From contig NC_091195.1 of NCBI RefSeq assembly GCF_040958095.1, positions 20,129,679-20,193,678 on the forward strand: a DNA stretch of 64,000 nt, given 5' to 3'. Shown here piece by piece: positions 5,301 through 62,469 of this stretch (within the stretch, counting starts at the first letter, position 1; each line of letters starts with the position of its first letter). The DNA comes from Procambarus clarkii. Taxonomy: Eukaryota; Arthropoda; Malacostraca; Decapoda; Cambaridae. The notes under the pieces are model-generated. The model made no database searches and was not told the origin of the DNA. It saw only the letters and a list, made by a program, of their open reading frames with translations. A program made the position numbers and the translations under genes.

Positions 5301-8300
5301 TCGCTAATGATCATGTGTGTGAATTTTGTCGTCACTTTTATTGCATGTTTCAAGACAATGAAATGAGTTTGTAGTGAATTTTTGTATAGACTGGCTCTTT
5401 TGAGTGCATATCTTGCTAGTTGAGCACGGAAAATACGCACTCATTTATAATTGATACCGATTTGTTTGGCAGTTTAATTGCTCTTTTGTATGCTATGGGC
5501 AAAATTGCATAATTTTTTATTAATTTGGTGGACAAACGTTGGTTATGATGGATTTGTCCTTGCCTAATTGTGCTGAGTTATGAATGTTTCACTACTTTCC
5601 TGATGAAGTAATCACATGTAGCCTGTATATTAATTTTTTATTTAATTGTTTATATACAAGAAGTTATATTCTTGCAAAGCCACTAACACGTATAGCATTT
5701 CTGGCAGGACCTTACTCTAAAAAGATAATTTTAATAGGTAATTTGTAGCAAAATTTGAAGAATATTAATAGGTACAATGTAGTAAAATTATATGTAGTAC
5801 AGTACAATGTAGCGCGAAAGTGTTAACGAGTACAATTGTAGCATAATATGTTGGCTGTTAATGTGCATTGTACAGTGGTTACAGGCCCTATTAATTAGCC
5901 TTACTCTAAATAATTTACTTCATTAGAGCAAGTTATTCTTTTATAAATGCAGGCAAATTTAATCTTAAAGGATGCATTGCATTATTAGAAAATAATAATG
6001 TAATTGGAATAAATAACTTTAACTGCTGATTTTTAGATGATTTTTTTTTAGTTTTCATGAGGGGACTATGGGGGGGGGTTCTATTATAAATGTTAGATTA
6101 GTTTTCTAGTTTTACTTCCCACTATTTGTATTTAATAAAGATTCTTTTGTGCTCTTAATGTTGCAAAATTAGTCATGCCAATGATTGTTTATTTTCCACC
6201 CAGTGCCCCAGAGACGGTTGACGAGCCGTATGGCTGGGAGAGCAGAGAATTTTTGCGCAAGAAGGTGATTGGCAAGGAGGTTCTTTTTACCGTTGAAACC
6301 AAGACTCCTACTGGAAGAGAGTATGGTGCTATTTATCTTGGAAAAGGTAAGTGTTTAATGTTGTGGATAATGGCTAGACTTTAAGACATTTGTGATTTGT
6401 TGGAATTTATATTGATTGTAAGTTATGTCGGCTTTTAAAGGTTGGTGTCGGTTAAGTTTAATATGAAATGAACAAATCCACAATATTCTACAAATCAAAT
6501 CTTGTTTAATATTCTTCAGAAATATCTGAATTTTTTCTAACAGTGGTTGTAAACAAATTGCTACTTGTGCCCCCCTCTTGTCTAACAGTATTGATAAATG
6601 TACCATCCTGTCTTGCTGTTATGCTTTATCTCTTGGAGCACCTAATACTGTATATTATTTTGGTAGGGAAGTTTTTGTACGTGTAACTTACCAAGCGTCA
6701 TTTATTTCTTTACAGATATAGCAACGGGAGAGAACTTGACGGAACTTATGGTTCAAGAAGGCCTGGTGTCAGTTAGAAGGGAAAGCATCAGAGGAGAGTC
6801 ACCTCTCCTAGAATATGAAGATTCTGCTAGAAACCAGGGCAAAGTGAGTACCTCGGCGAAGAGAGGGGAAAGGGAGGGAGCGAGAGTTGGGTGGGGGAAT
6901 TGTCGGCTTGCCTGTGTGTTTGTGGGGGGGGGAGTTGGTGATAGTTATCTCTGGCCTGGCTGCTTTCCGCCTCGTAAATGTGATAAACTGGGAATCGTCA
7001 TCTTGGCTTTAGAAGAGGTGCTGTGTCTTCACCATAATATAAGGATACTGTACTAATGTTTATTCAGATAAAAGTAGAGGGGTACATACATAAAATGTTA
7101 CAAGCAACATTGTATTTCTAGATAGCTTGTGTATACTATGGTTAAAGCCATTAATTTAATATGCAGTATTTCAGGCAAGATGTGGGAAAAACTTTAAAAA
7201 CTAAGACTTTAAACTAATTGAGACAGGATTTTAAGTTTTAATGTTTATATAAATCTTCCTAGAAATTTTTAGCTATTACCAAAGATATTTTTTCCCTGTG
7301 AAATGCCAGTATGGGGAGAGCAGTAGAAAGTTGGTCAATCTCTCACAGATGAGGTAGTGTGTATAAGGCATTAGGTCATATCACACATGATTTTCTCTGG
7401 AATGTTGCCTCTTTCATTTCTGTATATAAATGATGTATGTAATTTAGTAAGGTAGTTTTCTACATGTCGTATTATGTTGAATATTTGTATTAACTGCAGG
7501 CCTTGCATTCTAGTGATTGCTGAAATATATAGTTAACTAGTTTGATAATGCTTTGGCATTTAAACAAATGATTAAAGATAGTCGTCATTTTAGGCTTGAA
7601 CCAGACGATTTGCACCGTTATGATGCTCCCTCGTCTTTTAACATTAACCATCTAGATGAGGAGTAACAATAACGAGGCTGAAGAATTGACCAGACCACAC
7701 ACTAGGTGTGTGGACCATAATCAACTTGAGAATGGTCCAGGACGGACCAAAACGTCGTCGTCCCTTCACCTTCTAGTGTGTGGTCTGGTGAACACCTAGG
7801 AATTTTGTTGGTGAATTTACCAGTTTTTCTAATGAGTCTTTATTCACCCAGGGCAAATGGGCCGGTAATGATGCGAAACATGTTCGCAATGTGAAATGGG
7901 TGTGTGAAAACATGCGTTCGTTTGTGGACAAAGCAAAAGGTAAACCCATGGACGCGATCATTGAGCACGTCCGTGATGGTTCCACTGTCCGCTGTTTCCT
8001 CCTCCCAGAATACCACTACATTACCTTAATGATTTCTGGTATTAGGGTAAGTTCGTGGTAGTTTAAGTTAAACGTTAATGTCATTTATTATCCTAATTTG
8101 CCACAAACCCTTTGTCAAAGGAATAAATCTTGTGCTGTAAACTTGTCGAGTAAATGTAAAATATTAAGTTTGAGTTCATATATTAAGTGAAATATTAACT
8201 GAAGAACAGTCCTTGTATTATACATAAATTGAGCCTCACCCCTCCCCTTCCCTTGATTACCAAAGGGGGGTGAATATGGATCGAGTTGGAGATCAAAGTA

Positions 8301-11300
8301 CGTGGAGATATTTTTCATGGTGGGATGGGATGGAGTGAGAGGGTGCATACAAATATTTGATTACTGTATTTTATCCTTTCAGTGCCCAATGAACAAACTG
8401 GATGCTGAAGGCAAACCTGACAAATCCAGCAGTGAGCCATTTGCCGATGAGGCTCGCTTCTTCACAGAATCTAGGCTTCTCCAGCGAGACGTTCAGATTA
8501 TTTTGGAAACCTTCAACAATAACAACTTTGTTGGCTCCATCATTCATCCGGTTAGCATTTTTAATATCTAATTGTGTAACTTTAAAAACAGAATCGGTCA
8601 TGTAAAAAATAATTATTTCCTGTGATTGTGGTGGTGTTGACAATCTATTGCACTTGCTATAGATTAGGATTGCAGGTGGGTGGTGAAGGAGTAGAGGTAC
8701 ATTATTTGTATGACAACGGGTTCTGTCACACATTAACCCTTTGGCTGCAACTAACGTAAATTGACGTTTAATGATACTTAATAACCATAAGAATAACATG
8801 ATGGGACAATGATGATCAAGAAACTTATTTCATCTCTATCACTTTGAAGGGCATTTCCTATCTTTCCCGGTATCTTGGCATCATCCACAAATATTATCAT
8901 ATAGTAGTGAATTCCTTCTTGTATATTGTTTACGTAGACGAACATTGATGGCACAAGAACTGAACCCTGTGGTACTACGCCAATAATGCTCCTCCAGTCA
9001 GATAGTGTCTGAATACCACACTCATCTGTCTGTTGGTTAGAAAAAAACAGGAAAACTATATGGGTATTACTTTCTCTCCTGTGCATATAACTAATGTACA
9101 CAATTTTCACATTGCACAGGATCCTTGCTGCACATGACATGTCATGATGACTTCAAGGAACTGAGCCTTGGGTACAATCACTAAATATGGAAAATATGCT
9201 TAAATCCTATGACCTATCATTGCAAATTGTGTATAATTCTACTTTTCACTTCTTGCAGAACGGGAACATTGCAGAAGCATTGTTGCGGGATGGCTTTGCA
9301 AGATGTGTTGATTGGTCCATAGCAACAGTAACTGGAGGACCAGAAAAATTGAGAGCGGCCGAGAAACAAGCAAAAGAAAAACAGGTTCGTCTATGGACGG
9401 ATTACAAGCCCTCGAGCCTATCGGTAAGGTGATCGGTACAGTATTGGTACACCTCTTGTATTTATGCATGCACCTTGCATATCACCATATTATGAGTGCT
9501 TACATATCAATGGCAAGATGGTAAGTACTCTTTGCCCTATCTACTAGTCATTCATACCGGGTGCAAATCTTGCATTTCTTATGCCTCATAAACTATTTTT
9601 CTCATTTTTCAGTTTTTCTTAAGATTACTGAAATTATGTATTTATAAGTATTATATTTATTTTATTTATAGATAGCCGACAAAGACAAGGAATTCACTGG
9701 CAAAGTCGTAGAAGTTGTAAATGGTGATGCTCTGGTTGTTAAACGTCAGGATGGAACAACTAAAAAGATTTTCTTGTCCAGTGTAAGGCCTCCGAGGTGA
9801 GTTTCCTGGAGTTTTTCCTTGTGTATACTTGAAATACGTTAACAAAACCAAACTATCTGGATAATTTGTGCTGTGTATATAAATGTTGCTTTTGTTATAC
9901 AGTATTAAATCGTGCAAGTTGTTTAGGAAGGGATGACCTCGGTAGCTTGCTTGAGCTTCATAGTTGTCCATTGTATGTTAATTTTTATCACACTTGTTTG
10001 TAAGGTAGATGATTTTTCTTCTGTTCAACTGTAAACGAATGTTTGTTTATATTTGTGTTTTGTTATTTAGACTTCCAGATGCAGATACCCCTAGGCCCCC
10101 AGGCAAGAACTTCCGCCCTCTCTACGATATTCCTTGGTTATTTGAGGCAAGAGAGTTCTTGCGCAAGAAGCTTATTGGACAAAAAGTTCAGTGTACTGTT
10201 GATTACATCCAACCAGCTCAGAATAACTTCCCAGAAAAGACCTGCTGTACTGTCAGAATTGGAGATGTGTAAGTATGACAAATGTGAATTATTCTTTAAT
10301 TTGTAGTTTTTCAAATATCTGCACGTTTTCCTTTTTTATCTGCACGGGAGTATTTTTCCACATGTTGATTGTCCTCATTTTATCTTTGTACTCTTTCACA
10401 GTCCTTATAACTGTATTTTTTTCCTCAGTAATGTTGGAGAAGCAATGGTGAGCAAAGGCTATGCAACAGTTATTAGATACAGACAAGATGATGACCAGCG
10501 TGCCAGTTGTTACGACGATTTGCTGTCTGCGGAAGCCAAGGCAATAAAATCTGCGAAGGGTCTCCACAACAAAAAGGAAACTCCAATTCACAGAGTTGCT
10601 GACATTTCTAGTGTAAGTTTGTTTATTATGGGTATTTCATGAACATAGTAATGCTTTAGTGGTCAACCTCACTACTTCGGGTTTGCAACACTTGTAACCC
10701 ATTACTTGTGCAGAGTCTTGCAATGTGGTGCAAATGTCAAGTGAAGTACAAGTGTTTAGTGTGATGCTATTTAGTATTTAGCTTCTTTCCCTATTTTCTT
10801 CTGTATTAAAAAAATGATGTAGTAATAGTTAAAATTTATAAAGGGCTACAACTTTAGATAGCTCTTTCATAATTATATAGTTAGATAAATGTTGACTGAC
10901 ATGATGCCAAGACTGTGGGAGTCGTACGCAACCCACCATTGTTGTTATTAATGTGACTTAATACATTGCTCAGTTCAGATCCTGATATGCTCACATGGGG
11001 GACTTTTTATCACAATATTTCTAATTTTCTATATAAAAATTAAAATGCCTTTTATTTTTATTTCAGGATGTCGGAAAAGCCAAAGGTTTTTTGCCATTCT
11101 TGCAACGTGCTGGTCGCACCGAAGCAGTTGTGGAGTTTGTGGCTTCAGGTTCCCGTGTTCGTCTGTTTATACCGAGAGAAACGTGCCTCATTACATTCCT
11201 GCTGGCAGGCATCAGCTGTCCCAGAGCCACGCGACCTGCTCCTGGAGGTGTTGGAGGCACAGTGCCGGGTGAACCTCATGGAGAGGAAGCACTTGCGCTC

Positions 11301-16435: not shown

Positions 16436-18333
16436 ATGAAAACCCCTGTTTCGGCTGCTTCTGGCTTCCTTTCTCAGGCTCGTGGGGTGGGCGACCAAGC
16501 CCCCGAGTCGGTCCGTATTGGAAGACCGGGCTCTGTAGCCTCCGCTGCATTGGGCCCCGACCTTGCTCCTCCTTTGGCCTCTCTGACTCCTTCCCCTGGC
16601 TCCCTTCCCTCCTCTGTGGTTGGGTCGAGCCCCAAGCCCCCAGTGGTGACTACCTCGTCCCCTGGCGCGGCTCCTTCTCTAGTTGTAACTACTGCGCCTT
16701 TTAACCCCTCTCTCTCTGGGGGTTCTCACCGCCGTCCTCGTCACGGCCGCCCTCGCTCGATTCCTTCCAGTTCTGCTACCTATCAAGCCTTGTTTGGTCC
16801 CGCTTCGTGGGCCAAATATTTTGATCTCCTCCCTCTTGATTCTGCGCCTCCTGACGATTTCTCCCTTCATCGACATCTCATTGATTCCGTGGATGCCTCC
16901 ATTACTTTCAACCCCACTCGTCTCGGTACACGTGTCGTTGCTGCTCCTTCTCAGGATGCTGCTTCCCGCTTGGCTGCCTTGGCGAGACCCCTGTTCGGGT
17001 CTCGAAAAACGCTCAGTTGAATGCCAGTGTTGGCACTATTTTGCTCCCGCCCCATGTTGCGACCGGTGTTCGGGACCTGCGCGACTGCCACGACGATATT
17101 CGACATATCCTCGCTGTCCAGGGCCATTCTATTCTCCAGGTGGACACGTTTACTCGTCCCCCTCGTGGTAGTCGCCGTCAACCCCTCCGGGTTGTGCAGA
17201 TTACCTTTGATGGTAGGACCCTTCCACCCTCTGTCATTCTTGCTGGTGCCAGGTGCTCTGTCCAGGAGTACATTCCTTCTCCTCGGCTCTGCAACAAGTG
17301 CTGGAGGTTTGGGCATGGTGCCCTCCGCTGCTCCGGGACTGTCTCTCTCTGTCCTTTGTGTGGTGGCGAAGGTCACTCTAAGTCGGAGTGCGCTTCTCCC
17401 CAGGCTCGTTGCCTCAACTGCGGTGAGGCCCATCCTACCTTCTCCCGTGCATGTGTCCATTACAAGCTTGAGGCAGCCGTCCTCAACCTGAAGCACCGGG
17501 AGCGTTTATCTTTTCCTGAGGCGAGGCGCCAGGTTCGCCGGCTCCCGCCTTATGCTAATATCTCTTATGCTCGCGTGTTGCGCTCTTCCTCTCCTCGTCC
17601 TTCCCGCCTTCCTCAGACTCACAACCGTTTCCGGGCCTTGGACCCTGATGCGCCCACTGCCCCCTCCTCTGTTCCTTTGGGTTCTCTCCCGAAGAATCCT
17701 CCTCCTGGTCCTCTGTCTGGGGTTCCCCTTCCTTCTACCCGGTCTGTCGTGTCTTCTGTGTCTTCTTCCTCGTCCCCCTCCGATCCTCCTTCCCATCCTC
17801 TTCCTCCATCTATCGGCTCTCCCCGCCGCCTGTCGGTGCGGGCGGATGTCCATCGCTCTCCTAACGGCCGTCGTGTGTGCTCTCGTTCGGCTTCTCCTGT
17901 TGAGACACTGGAATCCGTTGCCCGGTACGTAGTTGCTGGGACACCGGTCTCTTTAAGTCAGAAGCGTAAGCCTGGCTCCTCTCCTTCCTCTTCCCCGGCG
18001 GGTAAGAAGGCTTCGCTTTCTTCCTCAGCTCCTCCTTCTGGCTCTGTTGCTCCTTCCCCTCCCGTTTCAGTGCTTGCGCCCCCTGTTCCTGCTATGGAGG
18101 TTTCTTTGGACCCTGCTTCCCTTACGGTTGCTGCTCTTGCTGGGGTGCGCTCCCCTCTTTCTACTGACGGATCCTCTCCGTTGTCTCCTCCTCTTCCTCC
18201 TCCTCCTCCTCCGGACCCTGCCCGCCCACCTCTGCTCTGTTCTCCCGTTTCCTTCCCTCCGTCTTTGCTCAGTTTACCCATGCCCCCTAACCCTGACTTT
18301 GCTGACCCTGATCCCGACCCTGATATTCTTTAA
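16436..18333 (+). CDS. LINE ORF1, nucleic-acid-binding gag-like protein (one frameshift)
   Basis: Starts MKTPVSAASGFLSQ and is Pro/Ser-rich in the first 100 residues. The central region ends in three CCHC zinc knuckles at about 17289-17452: CNKCWRFGHGALRC, CPLCGGEGHSKSEC and CLNCGEAHPTFSRAC. A long Pro/Ser-rich C-terminus follows. The frame changes near 16985-17010: before it the product reads LAALARPLFGSRK, after it NASVGTILLPPHVATGV. The protein should coat element RNA in RNPs, as known for I- and jockey-type ORF1p. Stop TAA at 18331. Confidence 0.85.
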
Positions 18334-21300
18334 CGTGCTCTGTTGCTCTTTCGCCTTTGTTTCTTCCTTGTTCTCTGTTTTTGTCCTTTCTCTTCTCGTC
18401 GTTGTCCATTCTTCAATGGAACGTTCGAGGTTATTACGCCAATTTCCTCGAACTCCAACTTCTGGTTTCGCGGTTTTCGCCCCTTTGTGTCTGTCTCCAG
18501 GAGCCAATGCTTGGTGCTCGTCCTGGTCGTTTTCGTGGCTATTCCTTTCTCTCCCCCCCCCCCCAGCCATTGCTGGGGCTTCTAATTCTTCTGCTCTCTT
18601 GATTCGGGCTGATGTTCCCTTTGTTCCTTTACTTTTTCCTTCGCCTCTCCATTGTTCTGCTGCTCGTATCTTTGTGGGGAAATGGTACACAGTTTGTTCC
18701 ATTTATCTCCCCCCGAGTGTTCCGCTCTCTCTTCCTGATTTGAAACACCTCCTCGACTCCTTGCCGGAGCCTGTGCTCCTGCTGGGTGACTTCAATTGTC
18801 GTCATTCTCTTTGGGGTGACGTTCTGACGAATACCCGGGGTCGCCTCCTTGAGCCGTTTCTCCTCTCTTCTTCCCTGTCTCTTCTGAATTCTGGTGAGCC
18901 CACTCATTTGGACTCTCGAACTCGCACCCTTTCTTGTCTTGATCTTTCTCTCTGCTCTTCTTCTCTTTACTTAGATTTCACGTGGCAGGTTCTTGATGAC
19001 CTCCATGGAAGTGATCATTTCCCCATCCTTGTTTCCTTTTTCTCTTTTCGCCCTTCCCTCTCTTTCCCTAGGTGGCAGTTTGCTAAGGCGGACTGGACCC
19101 TATTTACCCTCAGTGCTGCTCTCCCTGACCTCTCCCTTCTGCCCCTCTCTCGCGCTCTCCTCCTTTTTCATGACACTGTCTTCGACGCTGCCCTCCGCTC
19201 TATTCCTCGCTCTTCCTCTCGGGGTCCACGGAAGTGCGTTCCCTGGTGGAATGCGGACTGTGCTCGGGCTGTCCGCTGTAAGCGTGCAGCCTGGAAGAAG
19301 CACCGCCGTAGGCAGACGACCGATTCTTTTCTTTTCTTTCGGAAAGCGAGTGCGGTGGCCCGTAGGGCCATCCGTACGGCTAAACGTGAATGTTGGGCAT
19401 CTTATGTCTCGACAATTACGTCCGAAACCCCTCTGGCCCAGATCTGGAAGCGTATCCGCAAGATAGCGGGTAAGTTCGTTCCCGATGTTTCACCGGTCCT
19501 TCACCTCCATGATACTCTTGTGGCGGACCCGTTGCAGGTCGCTTCCGAACTGGGTTCCCACTTTTCTTCTGTTAGCTCTGGTCTTCATCTTCCCCAATCT
19601 TTCCTTCTTCGTAAACCTGTCCTTGAGTCTTGTCCTTTAGATTTCTGCACTCATCTTCAGCTTCCCTATAATGATCCCTTCTCTCTCTCTGAACTTCGTT
19701 CTGCCCTGGCCCTCTGCGGTTCTACGGCGGCGGGCTCCGATGGTATTCATTATGAGATGCTTCGCCATCTCCCTCCGAGCACGTCTCAGTATTTACTGAG
19801 TCTGTATAATCGGATCTGGGAGTCGTCGTCAGTCCCTGAGGACTGGCTCGATGCCGTTGTCCTCCCTGTTCGCAAACCGGGGTCTCTGGGTACTTCCCCT
19901 AAGGACTTTCGCCCTATTGCTCTCACAAGTTGTGTCTGCAAACTCTTTGAACGTATGGTTAACGTTCGTCTGATGTGGTTCCTGGAACACCATCACCTCT
20001 CCCCTTCTCAATTTGGTTTCCGCAAGTGCCGCAGCACGACAGATGTCCTGGTGAACTTGGAGGTCTATATTCGTACTGCTTTTGCTGCGAAGACCTCCGT
20101 TGTTGCCGTCCTTTTTGACCTAGAAAAGGCTTACGACACCACTTGGCGTTATCATATCCTATCTCAACTTCATTCTTTTGGCCTTCGTGGTCATCTTCTC
20201 TTTCTCCGCAGCTTCCTCTCTTGTCGTTCCTTTCGGGTGCGCCTTGGTACCGCTCTGTCTCCCTCTTTTCAGCAATACGAAGGTGTGCCCCAGGGTAGTG
20301 TTCTGAGCACTACTCTTTTTCTGGTTGCCCTCAATGGTCTTCTTTCCTCTCTTCCTTCTGGTGTCTTCTCCGCTCTCTATGTCGATGATCTTACCCTTTG
20401 TTGTCAGGGTGATGATTCGCCTCTCCTTCAACGCCGGCTTCAACTTGCAATTGATGCCGTGTCGTCTTGGGCCACAGGTCATGGCTTCAAGTTCTCTACT
20501 TCTAAGACTTGTGCCATGACTTTTACGCGGAAACGGGTTGTTCTTCGTCCCTCTTTGTCACTTTATGGTCATCCCCTTGAATACAAAGATTCCGCGAAGC
20601 TTTTGGGGTTATTCCTTGACACTCGTTTGTCTTGGTCTCCCCATATCTCTTACCTCCGTGTTGAGTGCTCTAAGGCCCTTACCCTCCTTCGGGTCTTGTC
20701 CCATACTTCTTGGGGGGCAGCTAGGCGCACTCTCCTTGCTTTACATTCCTCTCTCGTCCTGTCTAAGCTCGATTATGGTTGCCCTGCTTACTCGTCTGCT
20801 TCTCCTACTCTTCGCCGTCTTGATGCTTTGCACCATACTGGGTTGCGCCTCAGTTCTGGTGCCTTTCGTTCGACTCCCGTCCTTAGCTTGTATGTTGACA
20901 CTGGCTTCCTGTCTCTCCAGGACCGCCGTGATCGCTACTGTCTTCGCTATCTTGCGCGGTCCTTGCAACATCCTTCCTCTCGCCTCTGTCGTGCTTTAAC
21001 TTTTACCCCTCCTGCGGTTCCTGTTCCTCTTCACCACCTCCCTCTTTCTGTCCGGTTATCTCGCCTACAGGATTCTCTTTCCGTTCGTATTTCTGGTGTT
21101 TCTCCTCGTGTTGTTCCTTCTTTGCCCCCGTGGAGGGTCCCTCTTCCGCGGTTTTGTACATCCTTGACTCGTATCACTAAAGCTTTTACCCCTCCTACGG
21201 TTCTAAAACGCCTTTTCCTTGAGCACTTTTCTTCTCACTCCCGCTCCGTTTCTGTCTTCACCGATGGGTCTAAGTCAGCGGACGGTGTTGGCTACTCTGT

Positions 21301-22075
21301 TGTTTTTCCTGATCGCACTTATATGTGTCGCTTGCCTCCGGAGACTAGCATCTTTACAGCGGAACTTTATGCTATTCTCTATGCTCTTCGTCTCCTGCTT
21401 TCTCGTCGTCAGTCTTCCTTTGTGGTTGTTGTTGACTCTCGTAGTGCCCTCATGGCTCTCGGGTGCTTTAATCCAGTTCATCCAGTAGTTGTCGAGATCC
21501 AGCATTGGCTGTTTCTCGTTCACAGTAAATTTAAGTCGGTTGAGTTTTGTTGGGTTCCCAGCCATATTGGCGTGTCTTTAAATGAGCGTGCGGATGCTGC
21601 CGCTAAGGAAGCTGTCCGCTCTTGTCCCATCTCTCGTAAAGGCATTCCGTATTCCGACTTTTACCCGGTTATCCATTCCTCAGTCCTTACCCGTTGGCAG
21701 GCTTCTTGGTTGTCTGTTACTGGTAACAAGCTACGTACTCTTAAATGTTGTGTTTCCTCGTGGCCGTCCTCCTTCCACCGTAACCGGCGGTGGGAAACAG
21801 CTCTGGCGAGGTTGCGTATTGGCCATACTCGCTTAACCCATGGTCACTTGATGGAGCGCCGCCCTGCTCCTTATTGTCCTAGTTGCATTGTCCCTCTTAC
21901 GGTCGTGCATGTCCTTCTTGAATGTCCTGACTTCCAGGACGAGCGTGTGTCTTGCTTTCCGACCGCCCCTCGCGGTCACCTGTCCCTCGATAGAATTCTT
22001 GGTGACTCGGATACTTTTGATATCGTTCGCCTTATGCGTTTTTGTTCTCGTATTGGCATCCTTGGTGATATTTAG
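18324..22075 (+). CDS. LINE ORF2: APE endonuclease, reverse transcriptase, RNase H (frame change at a C12 run)
   Basis: Domains in order. Endonuclease about 18405-19030: ILQWNVRG, LQEPMLG, LLGDFNCRHS, SDHFPI. Reverse transcriptase about 19700-20650: FRPIALTSCVCKLFERM, QFGFRKCRST, FDLEKAYD, GVPQGSVLS, and the catalytic YVDD at 20378-20389. RNase H about 21240-21620: FTDGSKSADG, TAELYAILYA, VVVDSRSALM, NERADAAA, keeping the D-E-D-D set. C-terminal Cys/His region PYCPSCIVPLTVVHVLLECP about 21865-21930. The endonuclease N-terminus (18324-18552) is in a different frame from the rest; the switch falls at 12 C at 18553-18564. No ATG precedes the endonuclease in its frame, which opens at 18324 and overlaps the ORF1 stop by about 10 nt. 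Translation may therefore depend on re-initiation or frameshifting. Confidence 0.9.
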
Positions 22076-22153
22076 CGCCCTCTGATTATTTTGCGTATTT
22101 GATGGTGCTACATAGCCTTCCCGGTTTGGTGCCTTCTTTTGATAATTACTTAC

Positions 22154-22166
22154 TTTGCCCCCGTGG
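22154..22166. repeat. Inner target-site duplication, right copy
   Basis: TTTGCCCCCGTGG, identical to 15889-15901, directly after the LINE 3' end. Confidence 0.92.
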
Positions 22167-23173
22167 AGGGTCCCTCTTCCGCGGTTTTGTACTTCCTTGA
22201 CTCGTATCACTAAAGCTTTTACCCCTCCTACGGTTCTCAAACGCCTTTTCCTCGAGCACTTTTCTTCTCACTCCCACTCCGTTTCTGTCTTCACCGATGG
22301 GTCTAAGTCAGCGGACGGTGTTGGCTACTCTGTTGTTTTTCCTGATCGCACTTATATGTGTCGCTTGCCTCCGGAGACTAGCATCTTTACAGCGGAACTT
22401 TATGCTATTCTCTATGCTCTTCGTCTCCTGCTTTCTCGTTGTCAGTCTTCCTTTGTGGTTGTTGTTGACTCTCGTAGTGCCCTCATGGCTCTCGGGTCCT
22501 TTAATCCGGTTCATCCAGTAGTTGTCGAGATCCAGCATTGGCTGTTTCTCGTTCACAGTAAATTTAAGTCGGTTGAGTTTTGTTGGGTTCCCAGCCATAT
22601 TGGTGTGTCTTTAAATGAGCGTGCGGATGCTGCCGCTAAGGAAGCTGTCCGCTCTTGTCCCATCTCTCGTAAAGGCATTCCGTATTCCGACTTTTACCCG
22701 GTTATCCATTCCTCAGTCCTTACCCGTTGGCAGGCTTCTTGGTTGTCTGTTACTGGTAACAAGCTACGTACTCTTAAATGTTGTGTTTCCTCGTGGCCGT
22801 CCTCCTTCCACCGTAACCGGTGGTGGGAAACAGCTCTGGCGAGGTTGCGTATTGGCCATACTCGCTTAACCCATGGTCACTTGATGGAGCGCCGCCCTGC
22901 TCCTTATTGTCCTAGTTGCATTGTCCCTCTTACGGTCGTGCATGTCCTGACTTCCAGGACGAGCGTGTGTCTTGCTTTCCGACCGCCCCTCGCGGTCACC
23001 TGTCCCTCGATAGAATTCTTGGTGACTCGGATACTTTTGATATCGTTCGCCTTATGCGTTTTTGTTCTCGTATTGGCATCCTTGGTGATATTTAGCGCCC
23101 TCTGATTATTTTGCGTATTTGATGGTGCTACATAGCCTTCCCGGTTTGGTGCCTTCTTTTGATAATTACTTAC
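22167..23173 (+). mobile_element. 5'-truncated LINE (outer copy), right part
   Basis: Continues the outer copy: RNase H region, C-terminal region and the same 3' UTR ending GATAATTACTTAC. Nearly identical to 21133-22153. A 13-bp deletion near 22947, between short TGTCCT repeats, alters the C-terminal frame just before the Cys/His region. Otherwise only scattered substitutions are seen. Confidence 0.92.
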
Positions 23174-29288: not shown

Positions 29289-32200
29289 CTAGCTTTTAGG
29301 ATTTTGGTTGAAACTGATGTTGTAGCCTCCAGTACTCGAATCCTGTTTGAGTTCAAAATTTGATGTTGACAGTCCAAACGGTCGAAGAAACACATTTCCT
29401 AGATCCTTCAGTTTACCTGTGGACAAAACAAATGCTGTACATGAGAATTTAACTACAGTATATAGTTTTGTCACCGAGAAAAAATCCACAGGCCAGCATA
29501 TCTCTCAATACAAACAGTGTAGTTAAATGAGTGCTAAGAGTACAGTGGTGTAATTAATACAAGGAGGTGAAACGAGCACATCTTGAGGCAATGTCCATTG
29601 AAAATGTAATAAGGGGAAGAATGGGAGGTGGTTAATTTTGTAGTGGTCATGGTGGTAGCTGCTGTGGTTATGGTGACGAGAAGTGGCGGGTGGTGGCTGC
29701 AGTGCTCATAGTGATGAGAAGTGGCGGAGGTACAGTAGCTGCAGTGGTTATGGTGACGAGAAGTGGCGGGTGGTGGCTCTCTCTTTAATCAAGATAGTTT
29801 GCTTTGCTTTCCCTGTACTTTCTGGGTGGTTTTGCTTAGTTTTGAAGTTGATAATGCAAATTATTGGGTATTAAATTTGGCTTCCACAATGATGATTAAA
29901 TTTTCAGATTTTCTTCCGTGTTTGGAGAAAAGTGACCATTAATAATTTTGGAAATGATAACCAGCTATTCAGACAAAGGACTTTTGGTAGATGCAGTTTA
30001 CATGAACTTTGCTAAAGCTTTTGATAAGATACCACACAAAAGACTAGCAAGGAAATTATAAGCACATGCAATAAATGGTAGAACACTAGAATGGATAAAA
30101 CAGTGGTTAAAACAAAGTAAGCAAAGGGGTCTTCCTAAATGGAAATGAATCTGACTGGAGAAATGGGGTACCACAAGGGTACATTTTGGATCCAACCCTT
30201 TTTATCATACACACACACATCAATGACATAGATGAGAACATTACAAACCGCAGTACTGAATTTGCAGATAACACTGAAGATTTATGGTAATGTGGGAAGT
30301 GAAACTAATATTGAAGCCTAACAGAGAGGCGCCCAATAGGTAAGGCACATCTTGAAGAAAACTATCAAATTTTATCTTAAAGATGTCCACTTTTATTCCA
30401 AAAATATTTCTTATACTCGCTGGGAGGACGTTGAACATCCACAGACCTCTGATGTTCATACAGTGCAGGCTACCAAAACATCAACTCGAGAAGTGTATTG
30501 TGTTTATCGAACTTTAGGAGATGAAAACAACACACACACACTATAATTAATTGTTACTTGCACCCAGTTTAGTTATTAAGGTGTAAGAGACGGGAGCCAG
30601 TCGGCCGAGCGGACAGCACGCTGGACTTGTGATCCTGAGGTCCTGGGTTTGATCCCAGGCGCCGGCGAGAAACAATGGGCAGAGTTTCTTTCACCCTATG
30701 CCCCTGTTACCTAGCAGTAAAATAGGTACCTGGGTGTTAGTCAGCTGTCACGGGCTGCTTCCTGGGGGTGGAGGCCTGGTCGAGGACCGGGCCGCGGGGA
30801 CACTAAAGCCCCGAAATCATCTCAAGATAACCTCAAGATGACTATACACATTAAATAAAAGAGTGTAAGATTGTGTAATAGAATTGAATTGGACCACACA
30901 ACTACCTGCATTGACTGACACCTTTACTACAACAAACTACTCACTACTTTGCCACTGGTCTGCACCACAGTCATCTCCATGCATTATTGAATGCTCCAAC
31001 CTATTAACAGAGATAAAGAAGTTTGGCATTCAATTATACCAGATTGAGCACTCCGGATGTGCATATCAACAAAATAATAGGAAAGGTAGCTTGGTGAGGG
31101 TATCGGAGAACTAGACCCATTTTCTTGTTGTTTGCCATTGCTTTTAATCCCCTTTTTCTTGTAGATTCGTTAAACCACTGACCACCGAGCCCGCCCACAG
31201 TAACCATGAGATTATTATTTTACTAATCAACAATAGTTAAACTAAAATAAAGAAACTTCAACAGTATTTTACCGTAATTGGATAAATTCAGTGATATGAT
31301 GCAATAAAGTAAATTAACTCAGTGATAGAAAATTTAATAAATAATCCTTATTAATAAACAATTATTATTTAAAATATAGGCTAGGCAAGCCTTCAATAAT
31401 TTATTTATCAGTGTTTACTGCATCAATATTATTTAATCTTTATTGTAAAATTTCAATGTAGTATTGCCGGCAGGTTTGCGAGAGCAGCACTCGTCCTGTC
31501 AAGACCACGCTTATTCCATACCCTTAAGCAGGCCAAGGAGAGCATCTGCACTGCCATACATATACACCAGTTGATTGACAGTTGAGAGGCGGGACCAAAG
31601 AGCCAGAGCTCAACCCCCGCAAACACAACTAGGTGAGTACATGCTCACAACTAAGCCATTTTCTTTTTTATGCTGTAATTTTATTTAATGTAAATATTTA
31701 AATTATGCAAGTGATGAATCACAATAGAAACACAATAGAAGGCTTGAGAAATAATGACCAAACCACAACTCCTAAGAGGGAAGAATGATGATGTGTCAGA
31801 TCTGTCCTGGACCATTATCAAGTCGTGTCAAGTCATGACACGGCTTTATTTTTATGGTCCAGGATGGACTGAAACATTGTCGTTTCTCCATCTTCTGAGT
31901 TGTGGTTTGGTCATCATTTAAAATATATATAACCTCCTCCTCCTCCGCCTAGTAAAGCCATTAATCTGAAGAAGTGTTACTATCTAAATTACAACAAGTG
32001 TGTTCGGCACATGAATGTACTGAAAGAAGAGATGTGGATATCCACATCTCAGAAGAGATGTGGATATATATATATGGTATCCAGATGTGGATACCATCTG
32101 TATCCACAACTTCAAGAACAATTATGATGTGCAATTTGAATAGTAGGAGATTTATGAATAGGTTCAGTATTTAAATTAATTATACTGTACTCTCTAACAC

Positions 32201-35200
32201 TTGTATACAGTGCAGACGACGAGTCACAATAACGTGGCTAAAGTATGTTGTCCAGACCACACACTAGAAGGTGAAGGGACGACAACGTTTCGGTCCGTCC
32301 TGGACCATCCTCAAGACAATCGACTTGAGAATGGTCCAGGACGGACCAAAACGTCGTCGTCCCTTCACCTTCTAGTGTGTGGTCTTGTATACAGTACCTC
32401 ATACACTCTGCATCACACTGCACTCTACCACCACCACCACCAACTTCTCTTCCACCACAGGTTCCACATACAACATTGTGTACAGAAGTAACAAATTTTA
32501 ATCGTCAGTTCACTACTATTTCTTACAAGCATGCAATGCAAGTGTATAAATATAGTAAAGTATCCAGTACTATGCATTTTTCAGTAACTGACAAAACATT
32601 ATAAATTATTTCTTGAAAGTTTAATGTACAGTATAGATAATATGACAGTTTTATTTTGTGAGATATGCGTGGCACAGAGATTGGGACTACTTCCCTTGAT
32701 TGGCACCTATAAAAAAAAATACCTACCAGTAATTAAATATTGTACCTGAACCTTCTTATATTCCTGGGCATTTTCCCGCCTCTCTGTGTTTGCTAATACA
32801 GTTCACGTGTTCTTCAGGCTCTGCTGAAATCTTTACATGCACAGTGGTGACTGATTTCTTTTTGAATATCTGGGAGCCTAAACAGCAGGTGAAATTCTTT
32901 AACAAATAATTGAAGAACTTTTAAAGTGAACTTCCAAGTGTAAATTAATTAACACTTGGAAGTACCGTACTACATGGAAAGTTGGGTTATTTTTTATACA
33001 ATATCCCACAAATTTTCAACATCATCAAATGAAGTGTGTGTGTTGTTCACAGAGAATACAAATAATTAATATCCAGTATATAAGAAAGTAATTATCAAAA
33101 TAAGGCACCAAGTTGGGAAGACTACGTAGCTATACAGTACATAAAGACTAGAATACTACAATCAAAAAAAGAGTTTAGTATACATCACCTACTGACCACT
33201 GGGTAAAGACCTACCGAGTGAAAGTAAACTGACAGAGTAATCAAAGAGGAAAGACAGGTATGTAAGCTGGATCCAAAGCAAAAGGTAACATATAATTTAT
33301 CGATGCATATGCAGTATTATAAGAATGAAGAGTGAGGCTTCAATTCGTAATCTCACTGAAAAAGTTGAGCAATACCCTATTCGTAAAACGAGTTTTATAA
33401 TGAATATTCCACATGTTAAATCATCAATAAGTATAGAAATTACTGTATAGAAATTAGAGGTAATCTTGAGAGGCTTCCAAGAGCATAGCTGTATACAACT
33501 AGGAATACAACAACAGTGTAACTTACCTAACATCTCCTCCTTGAGCTTCTCGTTCCTCTCTGTGATCATATCGGGTAATCTCTGAAAATGATGGTTCCGT
33601 GCATTAGTTAAAAGTACACATTGCATCATCAGAATTTCTTGAATAGTTATTTAAATAAAAATAAGATTTTTTTTTCTTAAGAAAATATAAGCAAAGAATG
33701 TCACCAAAACAATTTCTCCCTGGGTTGTAAATGGTCAGATACTTCTCACATAAAAGTCCTGCATTGAACTAGATTATCCACTTGCTATGCAGTGAAGCGC
33801 ATCTTGAGGTTATCTTTTTGAGATGATTTCGGGGCTCAGTGTCCCTGCGGCCCGGTCCTCGACCAGGCCTCCTTTTTGTTACACACACCCCCAGGAAGCA
33901 ACCTGTATTAGCTGTCTAACTCCCAGGTACCTATTTACTGCTAAGTAACGGGGAAATCAGGGCGAAAGAATCACTCCCATTTGTTTCCGCCTCCACCGGG
34001 GATCGAACCCGGAACCTCAGTACAGTACTACGAATCCGAAGCATTGTCCAATCAGCTGTCAGGCCCCTCTGACAGCTGCATGCCAATACTTTAGACAGGT
34101 CTAGCCAGCAACTGAATGGGTGACCACACTAGCAGCCTAACCCTTGAACAAGGTAACTTCTATATGCCAAAAAAGGCTTCCTGTCTCAATAATGGTATAT
34201 CATACCATGAAAAGGAGGAAAATGTGCTAAGTGACATCAGGTTTGGAATGGACTTTACTGAAGAGAATATTTTACCTGTCCGGATTTTATTATATCTAAA
34301 ATGAGATACAAAGATCTAGGTGCTTACATTGATATGCAACATGCATTGGTTATACCGATTCTGAGATACTTGGCTTCTGTGTCTGGGGAACGGAAAGAGG
34401 TCGATTGCGGTGCTGGTAAACAATTTATCAACAATAACACACCTTTTTAGATGTCTACCCTTACACCTTCCTTCAGTATAAGGACCATACATCACATATA
34501 ACATAAACTATTGAAAATTGAAAAGAAAACTTATTTTAGCAAGAAGCCACCACCGAATCATGGCAAAATAAATGTTGTAATATGTATTGTAACAGGTTTC
34601 TGCAAGATGCTTTTCATATTTCATTATGCTTTTCAAGTATCTTTGATGAGTTCTTGGTGCCCGTGTTAAAAGACCAGTGACCATCCAAAGTCTGGCAACT
34701 TTACCCTAAATAGGGTTAATTGTACAGCATTAAACAGTTAAGAAATATGAGGAATTTGTATTTTTGTGACTACTGTACTAGATTCAAAGGTAATATTAAT
34801 TTACATACTTTAGTATGTAAATGGGATGGCTCTAAAATACACGCTCTCCAAATTTAAGAGAGATATTTTCAACATTTCTTGAAATGAATTAAATAAAATC
34901 ATGCATTAATTGAAGTCTCAATAGCTAATACTGTTGCTACCCCAGGATCCAGTCCTCTTATCCTTCTCTTGACCCCCCAAACCATGTCACTTCTATTCCC
35001 AAGAGGTACACGACTGCTGATGCATCCCACAGGTACACCATGAGCAAGCTAAGTTTCATGAATTTTTTAACAATAGTTTACATTTTGGGGAAGTTCATTT
35101 AGCAATTATGACATGTTAATATTTATTATAACCAGCAGTGGTCTGTTTTATTTCACCGGCTTTGTGGTTGTTTCCCCCGATGGTGGTGGAGGATTAAAAA

Positions 35201-38200
35201 TTCAAATTCATAGTGCACCTGCTCTCGGTACTGCATTAGAGGGGGCCAGGTTCTGGCTCATGGTCCCCGGTAGGCTTAAAAGAACTCTTGTGACTGATGA
35301 GTAGTTTGGTACTAGATCGGCATTGTTGCTTCAGGGAGTCACAAGGGTAAAGCACCAGTCACCCCAGTAAGAGATACCCCAGTAAAACTAATACTTTTTG
35401 CTGTACTGTATTACCACTCCATATACTGTACCGTACGTATGTAACAGTATATACAAGTTCTATATAACAAATACATACTGTCCTGACTCAATGCATTATA
35501 TTGCAGGTTAATTACTATACAGCATTCTTAATATTATACTCACTCTAACAGCCTCGTGTGATTCTTTATTAACGGGATCTAATTCTAAGACACGCTGGAA
35601 GTCCTTTAATGCCTCGTCTAAATTTCCAGTTTCTTCGTTGAGTGTTGCACGTCTCATCACAGCCTTTGTGTAAACACTGTCAAGTTCTATTGCTTTACTG
35701 CAATCACTAATGGCCTTCTTTTTCAGATTCTGTGAATATAACAATATTTGTTTAATGTCTTAAAACTTGAAATATTACAAATAAACAGACACTAATTCAC
35801 AATAATATGGCAGAAAGTTCAACACTAAACCAATATATGTATCTGGATAGAAACTCCCTATATCATTTACACCTAAAATGCACACACTAATTCCATTAAT
35901 ATTTTATTTACAACATTATGGAAAACAATTATTTTCTGTACAGTTTCTTAATAGCACATATTATACTCAGATCCACAGGCAGGCCGAGCCTATGAACCGT
36001 CCAATGATTTGAAACTGTTGAAACTATGTTTCATAGGCATGCTGCCCACCAGCAACAATGCCTGCACTTCACACACACATACACACGACATATGACATAT
36101 ATATAGCTCTCATCCTGTAATTACACTTAAGTAATTACATACACTTCCATTATCTGTCCAATTTGGCCTTCATCTCCTCCAACAAAAGTATCACAAGTAT
36201 ACTCTCTTCAACACTATCATCTTTTCATTCAGTATGACCAAACCTTTTCAAAACACTTTCCTCAGTTTTACCATTTGCTGACTTTTCCCCCCCCAACATA
36301 TTTTCACGACATTTCTATTCACTACTCTGTATTCCTGACACCACAAATGAATTTCATAGTCAAATTCTTTTATTAACTATTCTTTCATGCTAGTGACACA
36401 CACCAGCGTCTGGCATTTGTACTCAAGGGATGACAATCCTTCATATAGTGCTCTAATTGTCGATTTTTTCCATCTAATTCAATGTAACCAGAAAGTTCAT
36501 TAAACTAGATACTTTTCCGATTTACTTGACTCACACCTTCTCCAGTACAAATGCCTCCTTAGCCAGTTACAAAAACTCAAAGATTCAATCACAGGGTGTA
36601 ACGAGTACAGGGAGTGCAATTATTATAGATGTCATGAGTACAGGGACGCAAGCAAGATGATTACAGGGAATGCAGGAATAAAGTGATGGTGAGGAATATG
36701 AAGAGCAGGTAGAGGCTTCCTTGGGAGTGGAGGGAGTGTAGAAGAAGTAGAGGTGAAAGGAGGAGGACGAAGTGGAGGTGAATGGAGGAGGTTATCTTGA
36801 GATGATTTCGGGGCTTTAGTGTCCCCGCGGCCCGGTCCTCGACCAGGCCTCCACCCCCAGGAAGCAGCCCGTGACAGCTGACTAACACCTAAGTACCTAT
36901 TTTACTGCTAGGTAACAGGGGCATAGGGTGAAAGGAGGAGGAGAAGAAAGTGGAGGTGAATGGAGTAGGAGGAGGCTGCGGCTGTGGTGGGGCAGGTGGG
37001 GATTATAAACTATAATCCCCAAACTACCGAATAGGGTTTGGGCATTACAAGGGATACCTGGCAAAGCTATCTAACTACAGAAATGATGCTGTACAATATT
37101 TACTAACCAATCTGGCCTTTGCTGCTGCTCTGTTAGAATAAAGTATAGCACGATCTCTAGGGTATGCCAGAGGGCATATTCTGAGTCCTGCAGTGTAAGA
37201 GGTCAGTGCTTCTTGGAACTGCCCAGCCTTGAACTTGATATTACCACTTTCTTTATGAGTCTGGCTTTCCTCCCTCTTAGCCTAATAGGAGAAAATATAT
37301 TCAAATTAATATTTACAAATACTGTAAAGGAATATTGTACTATATCTACACATGTCTACATTAGCAAATGTCATGTGAAGTAATTTCAAAGACATGAGGC
37401 CAGCCAGACAGAAGGTAATGTAAATCACACAGTGAAACAACACTGTTTATTCTTGTAATAGGTTATAGAGATGGTAGAAGAATTGAAAACATGACTAGCC
37501 ACACGTGGGGCACTGGGCTCAGAGGTCAGTTGCTGCAGTGACTTGTAAACATTGGTATTCTGAGGAGGCTTCTTGAGAAGCAGACCTCCTAGAGGTAGAG
37601 TTAGGGACTGGAGAAAGAAAGAGATTTATTGCCTGTCTCTACTTCCTCATCACAATCAACTTGAGAATGGTCCAGGACGGACCGAAACGTCGTCGTCCCT
37701 TCACCTTCTAGTGTGTGGTCTGGTCAACATCAAAGAGATGAAAGATGTTCTAATAGTGCAGGCCCCAACACCAAGTTAATTGAGAATCAAGCCAACCTTA
37801 ATTTATTTCAGGTGAGTCAGTTGGGCAAGCTCCAGCAGGAAGAGCCATATAATAAGTTGGGTTGTGATGAATATGTGGGCCACTGCCAGCAACAGCTTTT
37901 GATTATGATTTTTCATTATTTTGACGGAAGACAAAACAATGGAAACCCGTGCCGCGGGAGGAAAATCAGTGCCACAAATAGGGATCTGGAATGAACTTGT
38001 AGAGGAATAGAGATGGTGTCCAGCTTGTACCAGGAGGAAATACCCATCAGGGCCAGTAACTAAACTTTAAAAAGTCAAAAGGAACCTATAGATCCTACTC
38101 CAACAATTAAAATACTACATGTGTAAAGGAAGAAATGTATACTTTTGTAGAACAGCCACATCTCTCAGAATGTTTGGTAATATGTTTATTGTTTGTGATG

Positions 38201-44847: not shown

Positions 44848-44960
44848 TGAAGGGTCCTGGTTGTACAGTCGGGTTCGTTCTTACTCATAATCGAAAATTC
44901 CGGGTTCGAGTCCCGGCCGGGACAGAAATGGTTGGGCACGCTTCCAACCATCTCAATGCT
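44848..44960 (+). mobile_element. SINE-B, partial (tRNA-like head)
   Basis: Head GGGTCCTGGTTGTACAGTCG with a B box in GGGTTCGAGTCCCGGCC, then GGGACAGAAATGGTTGGGCA. The body breaks off soon after. Confidence 0.75.
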
Positions 44961-61955: not shown

Positions 61956-62032
61956 GTACTGCATTGCTTTTTCTATTAAGCTTAACCCATTAATCATATT
62001 TGAATCAATTACAGTATGATGCCATATCAATT

Positions 62033-62211
62033 TGACCAGGCCACACACTAGAAGGTGAAGGGACGACGACATTTCGGTCCGTCCTGGACCATTCTCAAGT
62101 CCATCGACTTGAGAATGGTCCAGGACGGACCGAAACGTCGTCGTCCCTTCACCTTCTAGTGTGTGGTCTGGTCAACTTACTTTAGTCACGTTATTGTGAC
62201 TCATCGCCTGC
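62033..62211 (+). repeat. Hairpin retroposon copy D with 14-bp target-site duplication
   Basis: Two nearly perfect complementary arms of about 70 bp: left starts TGACCAGGCCACACACTAG, centre CTCAAGTCCATCGACTTGAG near 62104, right ends CTAGTGTGTGGTCTGGTCAA. A unique 3' end, CACGTTATTGTGACTCATCG, follows. ATGCCATATCAATT flanks the element at 62019-62032 and 62212-62225. In FKBP15 intron 4. Confidence 0.93.
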
Positions 62212-62469
62212 ATGCCATATCAATTATGTTATGATGATGCAAATTCATAAATGCTCAAGCAAAAATGTGAGTACTGTATTCATATATATATATCTATCCC
62301 ATGCATTTAGTATTTACTTCATGTGAAAATGATGAAATGTATTCAGAAATGTTATCGGTCTCACTCTAGTGTTCCCTAAAGCAGGGTCCATTCTGGTTCC
62401 ATGGTCAGGATCCAGCACTCAGGATAAATCAGCATTTTGTACTGCTGCAGCAGGGATCTTTTCACAAGT

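Follow-up and report, generated by a model that had tools for sequence, protein, structure and literature searches.

Abundant short hairpins of Procambarus clarkii and their very likely origin from a Penelope-like element

The window, that is, the whole stretch of 64,000 nucleotides analysed here, contains a near-perfect palindrome with a unique 3' end, located where the earlier note had placed it (Table 1). Its inverted arms (62029-62101 and 62106-62178) are 73 nt long, 96% complementary and separated by a 4-nt spacer, and its RNA folding energy is -150.1 kcal/mol compared to -52.6 (sd 4.0) in 200 shuffles. The arms of a second copy (32254-32315 and 32324-32385) are 62 nt long and 95% complementary. 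The direct repeats of 14 and 12 bp that the note had reported around these two copies are both exact. An exact flanking duplication was also sought at the third copy, which has unequal arms, and was not found. Within the window the word that marks the unique 3' end (tail word) occurs at hairpin copies only. The window also includes an I-like LINE that encodes a zinc-knuckle ORF, an endonuclease, a reverse transcriptase (RT) and an RNase H (16436-23105), with its 3' coding part recurring as an incomplete second copy at 22155-23105. A tRNA-like match at 44854-44924 scores 30.8 bits, the Rfam gathering score being 29 bits, and is perhaps part of a tRNA-derived repeat.

Table 1 Hairpin copies and related features of the window. 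PLE, Penelope-like element; pLTR, pseudo-LTR; A arm, arm with tail; B arm, arm without tail.
Feature	Position	Strand	Remark
Target-site duplication, left, 14 bp	62019-62032		exact repeat
B arm: pLTR of PLE, reverse orientation	62033-62102	-	borders +/- a few nt
A arm: pLTR, forward orientation	62103-62176	+	
PLE tail, between two putative reverse-transcription start sites	62177-62211	+	match to PLE copy
Target-site duplication, right, 14 bp	62212-62225		exact repeat
Second copy: left duplication, 12 bp	32200-32211		exact repeat
Second copy: tail	32212-32246	-	
Second copy: A arm pLTR	32247-32315	-	
Second copy: B arm pLTR	32317-32383	+	
Second copy: right duplication, 12 bp	32384-32395		exact repeat
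Third copy, unequal arms	7658-7794		short A arm and tail 7658-7705 (-); long B arm 7719-7794 (+)
Old diverged hairpin copy, tail at left	31707-31917		
PLE 3' UTR end and pLTR	37624-37730	+	neither tail nor inverted partner seen

Each arm corresponds to the ~76-bp pLTR of a PLE from the same genome, and the unique 3' end of the palindrome corresponds to the PLE tail. Six loci that hold the tail word (L075, L076, L079, L081, L089 and L103) have the same pLTR with a 3' UTR ahead of it; the first four of them also include the end of a GIY-YIG coding region, whose sequence agrees at 98-100% among the four. At C1:7727068-7729846 (L074 and L075) the order is tail, a single nucleotide, the ATG of an uninterrupted 797-aa ORF, 3' UTR, pLTR and tail. 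The N-terminal piece of this ORF matches RVT_1 with 32.4 bits, above the Pfam cut-off. The C-terminal piece scores 24.8 bits for RVT_1, below the cut-off, and 20.3 bits for GIY-YIG, just below the cut-off of 22.6, and is 30-43% identical to GIY-YIG loci that score above it. Weak matches of the RT in the PDB include telomerase RTs (E 0.018), which rank behind other RTs (E 0.0025). A hammerhead motif in the pLTR is usual, not universal, among PLEs; neither L075 1350-1560 (searched with an E limit of 10) nor five hairpin loci gave a hammerhead match.

Three features by which PLEs are recognized are present: a single ORF in which the RT precedes a C-terminal GIY-YIG endonuclease, pseudo-LTRs that may carry a tail of 30-40 nt on one side, and duplications of variable length (8-19 bp). 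Since an ORF with RT and GIY-YIG that comes with the same pLTR and tail has the Penelope-type layout (RT then GIY-YIG in one ORF, pLTR, tail), as laid out in the available parts of PMC3846280 and PMC11167929, the parent family of the hairpins is almost certainly a PLE. Two loci first found as GIY-YIG loci that also hold a pLTR unit were set aside as support for the link between PLE and pLTR. The GIY-YIG ORF of L033 is on the opposite strand, and the unit of L047, a diverged relative, lies past another PLE's own end. That second PLE family ends in CTGAAGATG...CGAAAG (L047 2033-2060), which by eye we take to be like a reduced hammerhead core.

The hairpin family is very abundant. In 4,027,284,227 bases of genome (~4.03 Gb) there are 16,768 exact occurrences of the 3'-end 17-mer, versus 0 for the reversed control, and the centre pattern TCTCAAG-N{0,20}-CTTGAGA occurs at 9,063 places, versus 553 for the reversed pattern, i.e. 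~6% of the centre-pattern places are expected by chance. Word counts in the same genome were 44,806 for the pLTR end, 1,578 for the EN word and 903 for the RT word. A tail-anchored survey of 50 loci (L061-L110; 30 and 20 from two word listings) was reduced by reading to at most 35 independent insertions. Nineteen of these are short head-to-head pairs and one is a pair at the 5' end of a longer copy (L080). Three are inverted pairs with coding sequence (L076, L082 and L070, the last classed from word places alone), five are long direct copies whose far end is mostly outside the view, two are one-sided solo copies and five are short tail remnants. The short hairpins are most likely the shortest PLE insertion product, and in this sample also the commonest. 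In L070, short stuttered repeats (CAACATACTTC...) lie near the pLTR/tail border, as if reverse transcription had slipped.

Fifty-three copies with inverted arms were measured, of which 28 were collected by similarity to the palindrome, a biased selection, 22 were word-anchored (loci fetched by tail or pLTR words) and three came from the window. Duplicates were removed (L001, L020, L062-L069, L071, L096, L098-L100 and L105), and the old window copy was excluded as it lacks a full tail match. Of the 53 copies, 38 are flanked by an exact duplication of 8 bp or more (19/25 in the set without similarity selection), and 36 by one of 10 bp or more. When flanks were paired across different copies in 200 shuffles, the corresponding values were 0.12% and 0, so the duplications are not due to chance. 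They are 8-19 bp long, with 27 of the 38 at 12-14 bp; the 15 copies without an exact 8-bp duplication include several in which it is visibly imperfect.

The two arms differ in their outer ends: one extends to the end of the tail (site A), whereas the other stops where pLTR and tail meet, ~36 nt upstream (site B). The tail-less arm has its outer end at query position 185-192 in 46/53 copies, and in 19/25 of those free of similarity selection. Insert ends of this kind would be consistent with two internal reverse-transcription start sites that bound the tail. The fixed 3' end described in the earlier note was upheld across the measured copies. Its different 5' start points hold for the two window copies, which do differ by a few nucleotides, but not for the family, and the ragged 5' end read from them has to be given up: both outer ends are nearly fixed and it is the centre that varies.

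The number of tails per pair was determined in a set chosen without regard to tails, in which pLTR ends were located by the word TGTGTGGTCTGGTCAAC (the first 100 places listed on contig C1) and compared to two tail words. Among the 15 adjacent inverted pairs, the word lists gave one tail in 13 and two tails in none, and the remaining two (L111 and L112) proved, when read in sequence, to have one diverged tail each. All 15 pairs thus have a single tail. Ten were read in sequence, including eight of the 13 (L083, L084, L085, L088, L093, L094, L096 and L113, the tail of the last being truncated), and five were scored by exact words only, by which a diverged second tail could be missed. L084 and L096 share junction and duplication, which leaves 14 independent pairs. 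In none of the 53 measured copies does the second arm run into a tail. Genome-wide, 20,615 pLTR ends run on into the tail word versus 44,806 exact pLTR ends, about one in two, the two words being unequal in length and the larger count including a minisatellite run. At C1:18891222-18891732 (G000) the pLTR-end word recurs at a spacing of 26 or 52 bp, a minisatellite that looks as if it had grown from a pLTR end.

The arms also share an inner boundary. The A arm has its inner end at query position 111-123 in 47/53 copies (19/25 without similarity selection) and the B arm at 110-123 in 48/53 (20/25), and partnerless copies begin at the pLTR start too (the L061 array at 111, L091 at 116). Exact-word counts there are 43,695 at query position 117, 15,791 at 111 and 3,530 at 105. 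Because the count falls from 43,695 to 3,530 over 12 nt, this border, TCACAATCG, would be the 5' end of the RNA. It lies ~29-31 nt past a TATA-like box: in L075, L076 and L103 this is TATTTAT, whose leading T was counted by hand as 29 nt upstream of the A of TCA, and in L079, L081 and L089 it is TATTTAA, about 2 nt farther upstream.

In some copies the two arms are of very different length. The tail arm covers query positions 182-225 and the tail-less arm 112-194 in L078; the corresponding spans are 167-225 and 114-191 in L110, and in the third window copy the tail-less arm covers 115-190 while the tail arm begins at 169. In these three copies the tail-less arm is longer by 53-70 nt. The imbalance is reversed in L085, with inner ends at 117 (tail arm) and 141 (tail-less arm), and in L076 and L082 coding sequence is present in one arm and missing from the other. 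Within copies, variants common to both arms numbered 15 (n = 45 copies) compared to a shuffled mean of 2.8 and a largest shuffled value of 12 in 10,000 shuffles. This makes it less likely that the second arm was inserted separately at a later time, and is still compatible with one common source; arm concordance fits one RNA and one active source alike, and does not separate them. At 50 places 32 distinct junctions were found, and many of the repeats are nearby duplications. One junction was found seven times (L113; C1 6565672, 6705842, 6948302, 18297404, 25177206, 25455517, 25565480). L113, the sole copy of it that was read, sits in repeated sequence (77% in L072, 75% in L016/L020), and this junction probably travelled with another repeat as a passenger. 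The 32 distinct junctions and the very unequal arms of some copies indicate that most palindromes formed at insertion.

We consider it likely that the hairpins arise by two-sided internal priming in which synthesis runs off the 5' end of the RNA. The PLE protein would nick both target strands, and each target 3' end would prime reverse transcription on the leader of the PLE mRNA, one at site A and the other at site B. Both cDNAs would run off the RNA 5' end, transcription starting at the pLTR border, and repair would join them head to head with a few nucleotides lost or gained. In the longer coding pairs one cDNA may have read through an upstream unit of an RNA made of several units. Most hairpins would be end products, with no replicating hairpin family. 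It is from the anatomy of the inserts that we infer the nicks, the shared RNA, its 5' end and the repair. The Anolis PLE protein, in the available text of PMC11167929, cuts both strands of its target, extends both, and begins synthesis at two neighbouring internal sites, one at each boundary of the tail; in that in vitro work no difference in start site was seen between the strands. Taken alone, the latter would lead one to expect pairs with two tails and pairs with none as well. A further constraint is therefore needed for the one-tail rule, and we propose that it is a single shared RNA. Two-sided priming is not obligatory, since one-sided copies without a partner exist (the L061 array and L091).

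A different route to inverted pLTRs, self-priming on antisense RNA, was put forward in the 2013 rotifer PLE paper, where palindromes at inverted PLE junctions are read in this way (PMC3846280, in the parts available). One arm would be reverse-transcribed, fold back and be copied into the other, which fits the variants shared by the arms within copies. However, an arm much longer than its partner cannot be a copy of it, and neither the 53-70 nt of tail-less arm that the tail arm lacks in three copies nor the coding sequence confined to one arm of L076 and L082 agrees with simple fold-back. Copying of the tail arm should moreover often yield a second tail, seen in 0/53, and we regard this route as unlikely. 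The proposal of the earlier note, in which the hairpin RNA itself is mobile and is copied by a LINE, with the I-like LINE of the window as a possible mover, would account for the fixed 3' end, for duplications of 12-14 bp and for the one junction common to seven of 50 places. It is very improbable given the 32 distinct junctions, the strongly unequal arms, a recurrent junction that in the only copy read lies within repeated sequence, a window LINE without the tail word and a PLE that holds both arm and tail. The note's interpretation is upheld in part, namely in its broader reading of the insert as an RNA-templated, target-primed product, for which neither a hairpin RNA nor a LINE is required.

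Least probable of all, and hardly credible, is a transposase-mobilised palindromic DNA transposon (a MITE or fold-back element). The long inverted repeats would suit it, as would outer ends that hardly vary, but the ends are not inverted repeats of each other, the tail being on one only, the duplications span 8-19 bp and the arms are the terminal part of an element that encodes an RT. Terminal inverted repeats that are symmetrical and flanked by a short duplication of one fixed length, as in a MITE, were not found, in line with the note, which had argued against a MITE. The palindrome was also rejected as a SINE moved by a LINE, as a pair of Pol III A and B boxes and a 3' end shared with the window LINE are missing; the Pol III promoter that the note had suggested looking for is not borne out in the palindrome, which has no B box, no TTTT and one loose A-box match per strand. 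It was rejected as a metazoan retrozyme, with no hammerhead match and no tandem unit at aligned hairpins, and as a microRNA precursor, where the best Rfam match (65 bits, gathering score 99) was taken as a generic match to a long hairpin. No paper was found for the word GGACGGACCGAAACG, and a literature search, outside of which most subscription journals lie, found no paper title on short PLE hairpins.

In twin-primed LINE-1 5' inversions both target strands prime, and their products end up joined with opposite orientations. Two-sided priming of the PLE would share both of these traits, but here the two arms end at two fixed sites close to one start region of the RNA, and are for this reason largely complementary. 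MITEs and fold-back DNA elements are palindromic, short and abundant; the hairpins differ from them by asymmetric ends, longer and variable duplications and an RT-encoding parent. The closest likeness is to insertions of Penelope/Poseidon PLEs, which in the available parts of PMC3846280 and PMC11167929 also have inverted pLTRs of which one bears a tail of 30-40 nt, a single ORF with the RT ahead of GIY-YIG, variable duplications and a junction palindrome. Unlike in those insertions, the pairs found here have little or nothing between the arms and are far commoner than coding copies, and no hammerhead was found. Metazoan non-LTR retrozymes, which the available text of PMC7229834 suggests are moved by PLEs, are likewise short, non-autonomous and highly self-paired, but are tandem repeats with type I hammerheads, neither of which was seen at the hairpins that were searched. 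The hairpins are thus a variant form of known PLE insertion structures, and it is their number and shortness that make the insertion mechanism readable.

How PLEs insert, and why inverted pLTRs have a tail at one end, is unsettled in the available parts of PMC3846280 and PMC11167929, and the latter (2024) left later insertion steps for validation. The thousands of hairpins are short, readable end products that bear on PLE insertion, and the single tail of each pair, the inner boundary shared by the arms and the unequal arm lengths fit two-sided priming better than fold-back. More tentatively, and with rather less confidence than in two-sided priming itself, we suggest that PLE integration may commonly be concerted, with both insert strands reverse-transcribed from one RNA by the halves of an RT dimer and each start site used once. 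With a single shared template the one-tail rule would follow, and two-tailed or tail-less pairs would need two RNAs; with a concerted reaction, DNA-templated second-strand synthesis would be dispensable across most of the insert. For the genome of P. clarkii, the PLE origin of the hairpins accounts for a repeat of very high abundance that might otherwise pass for a MITE or a microRNA precursor.
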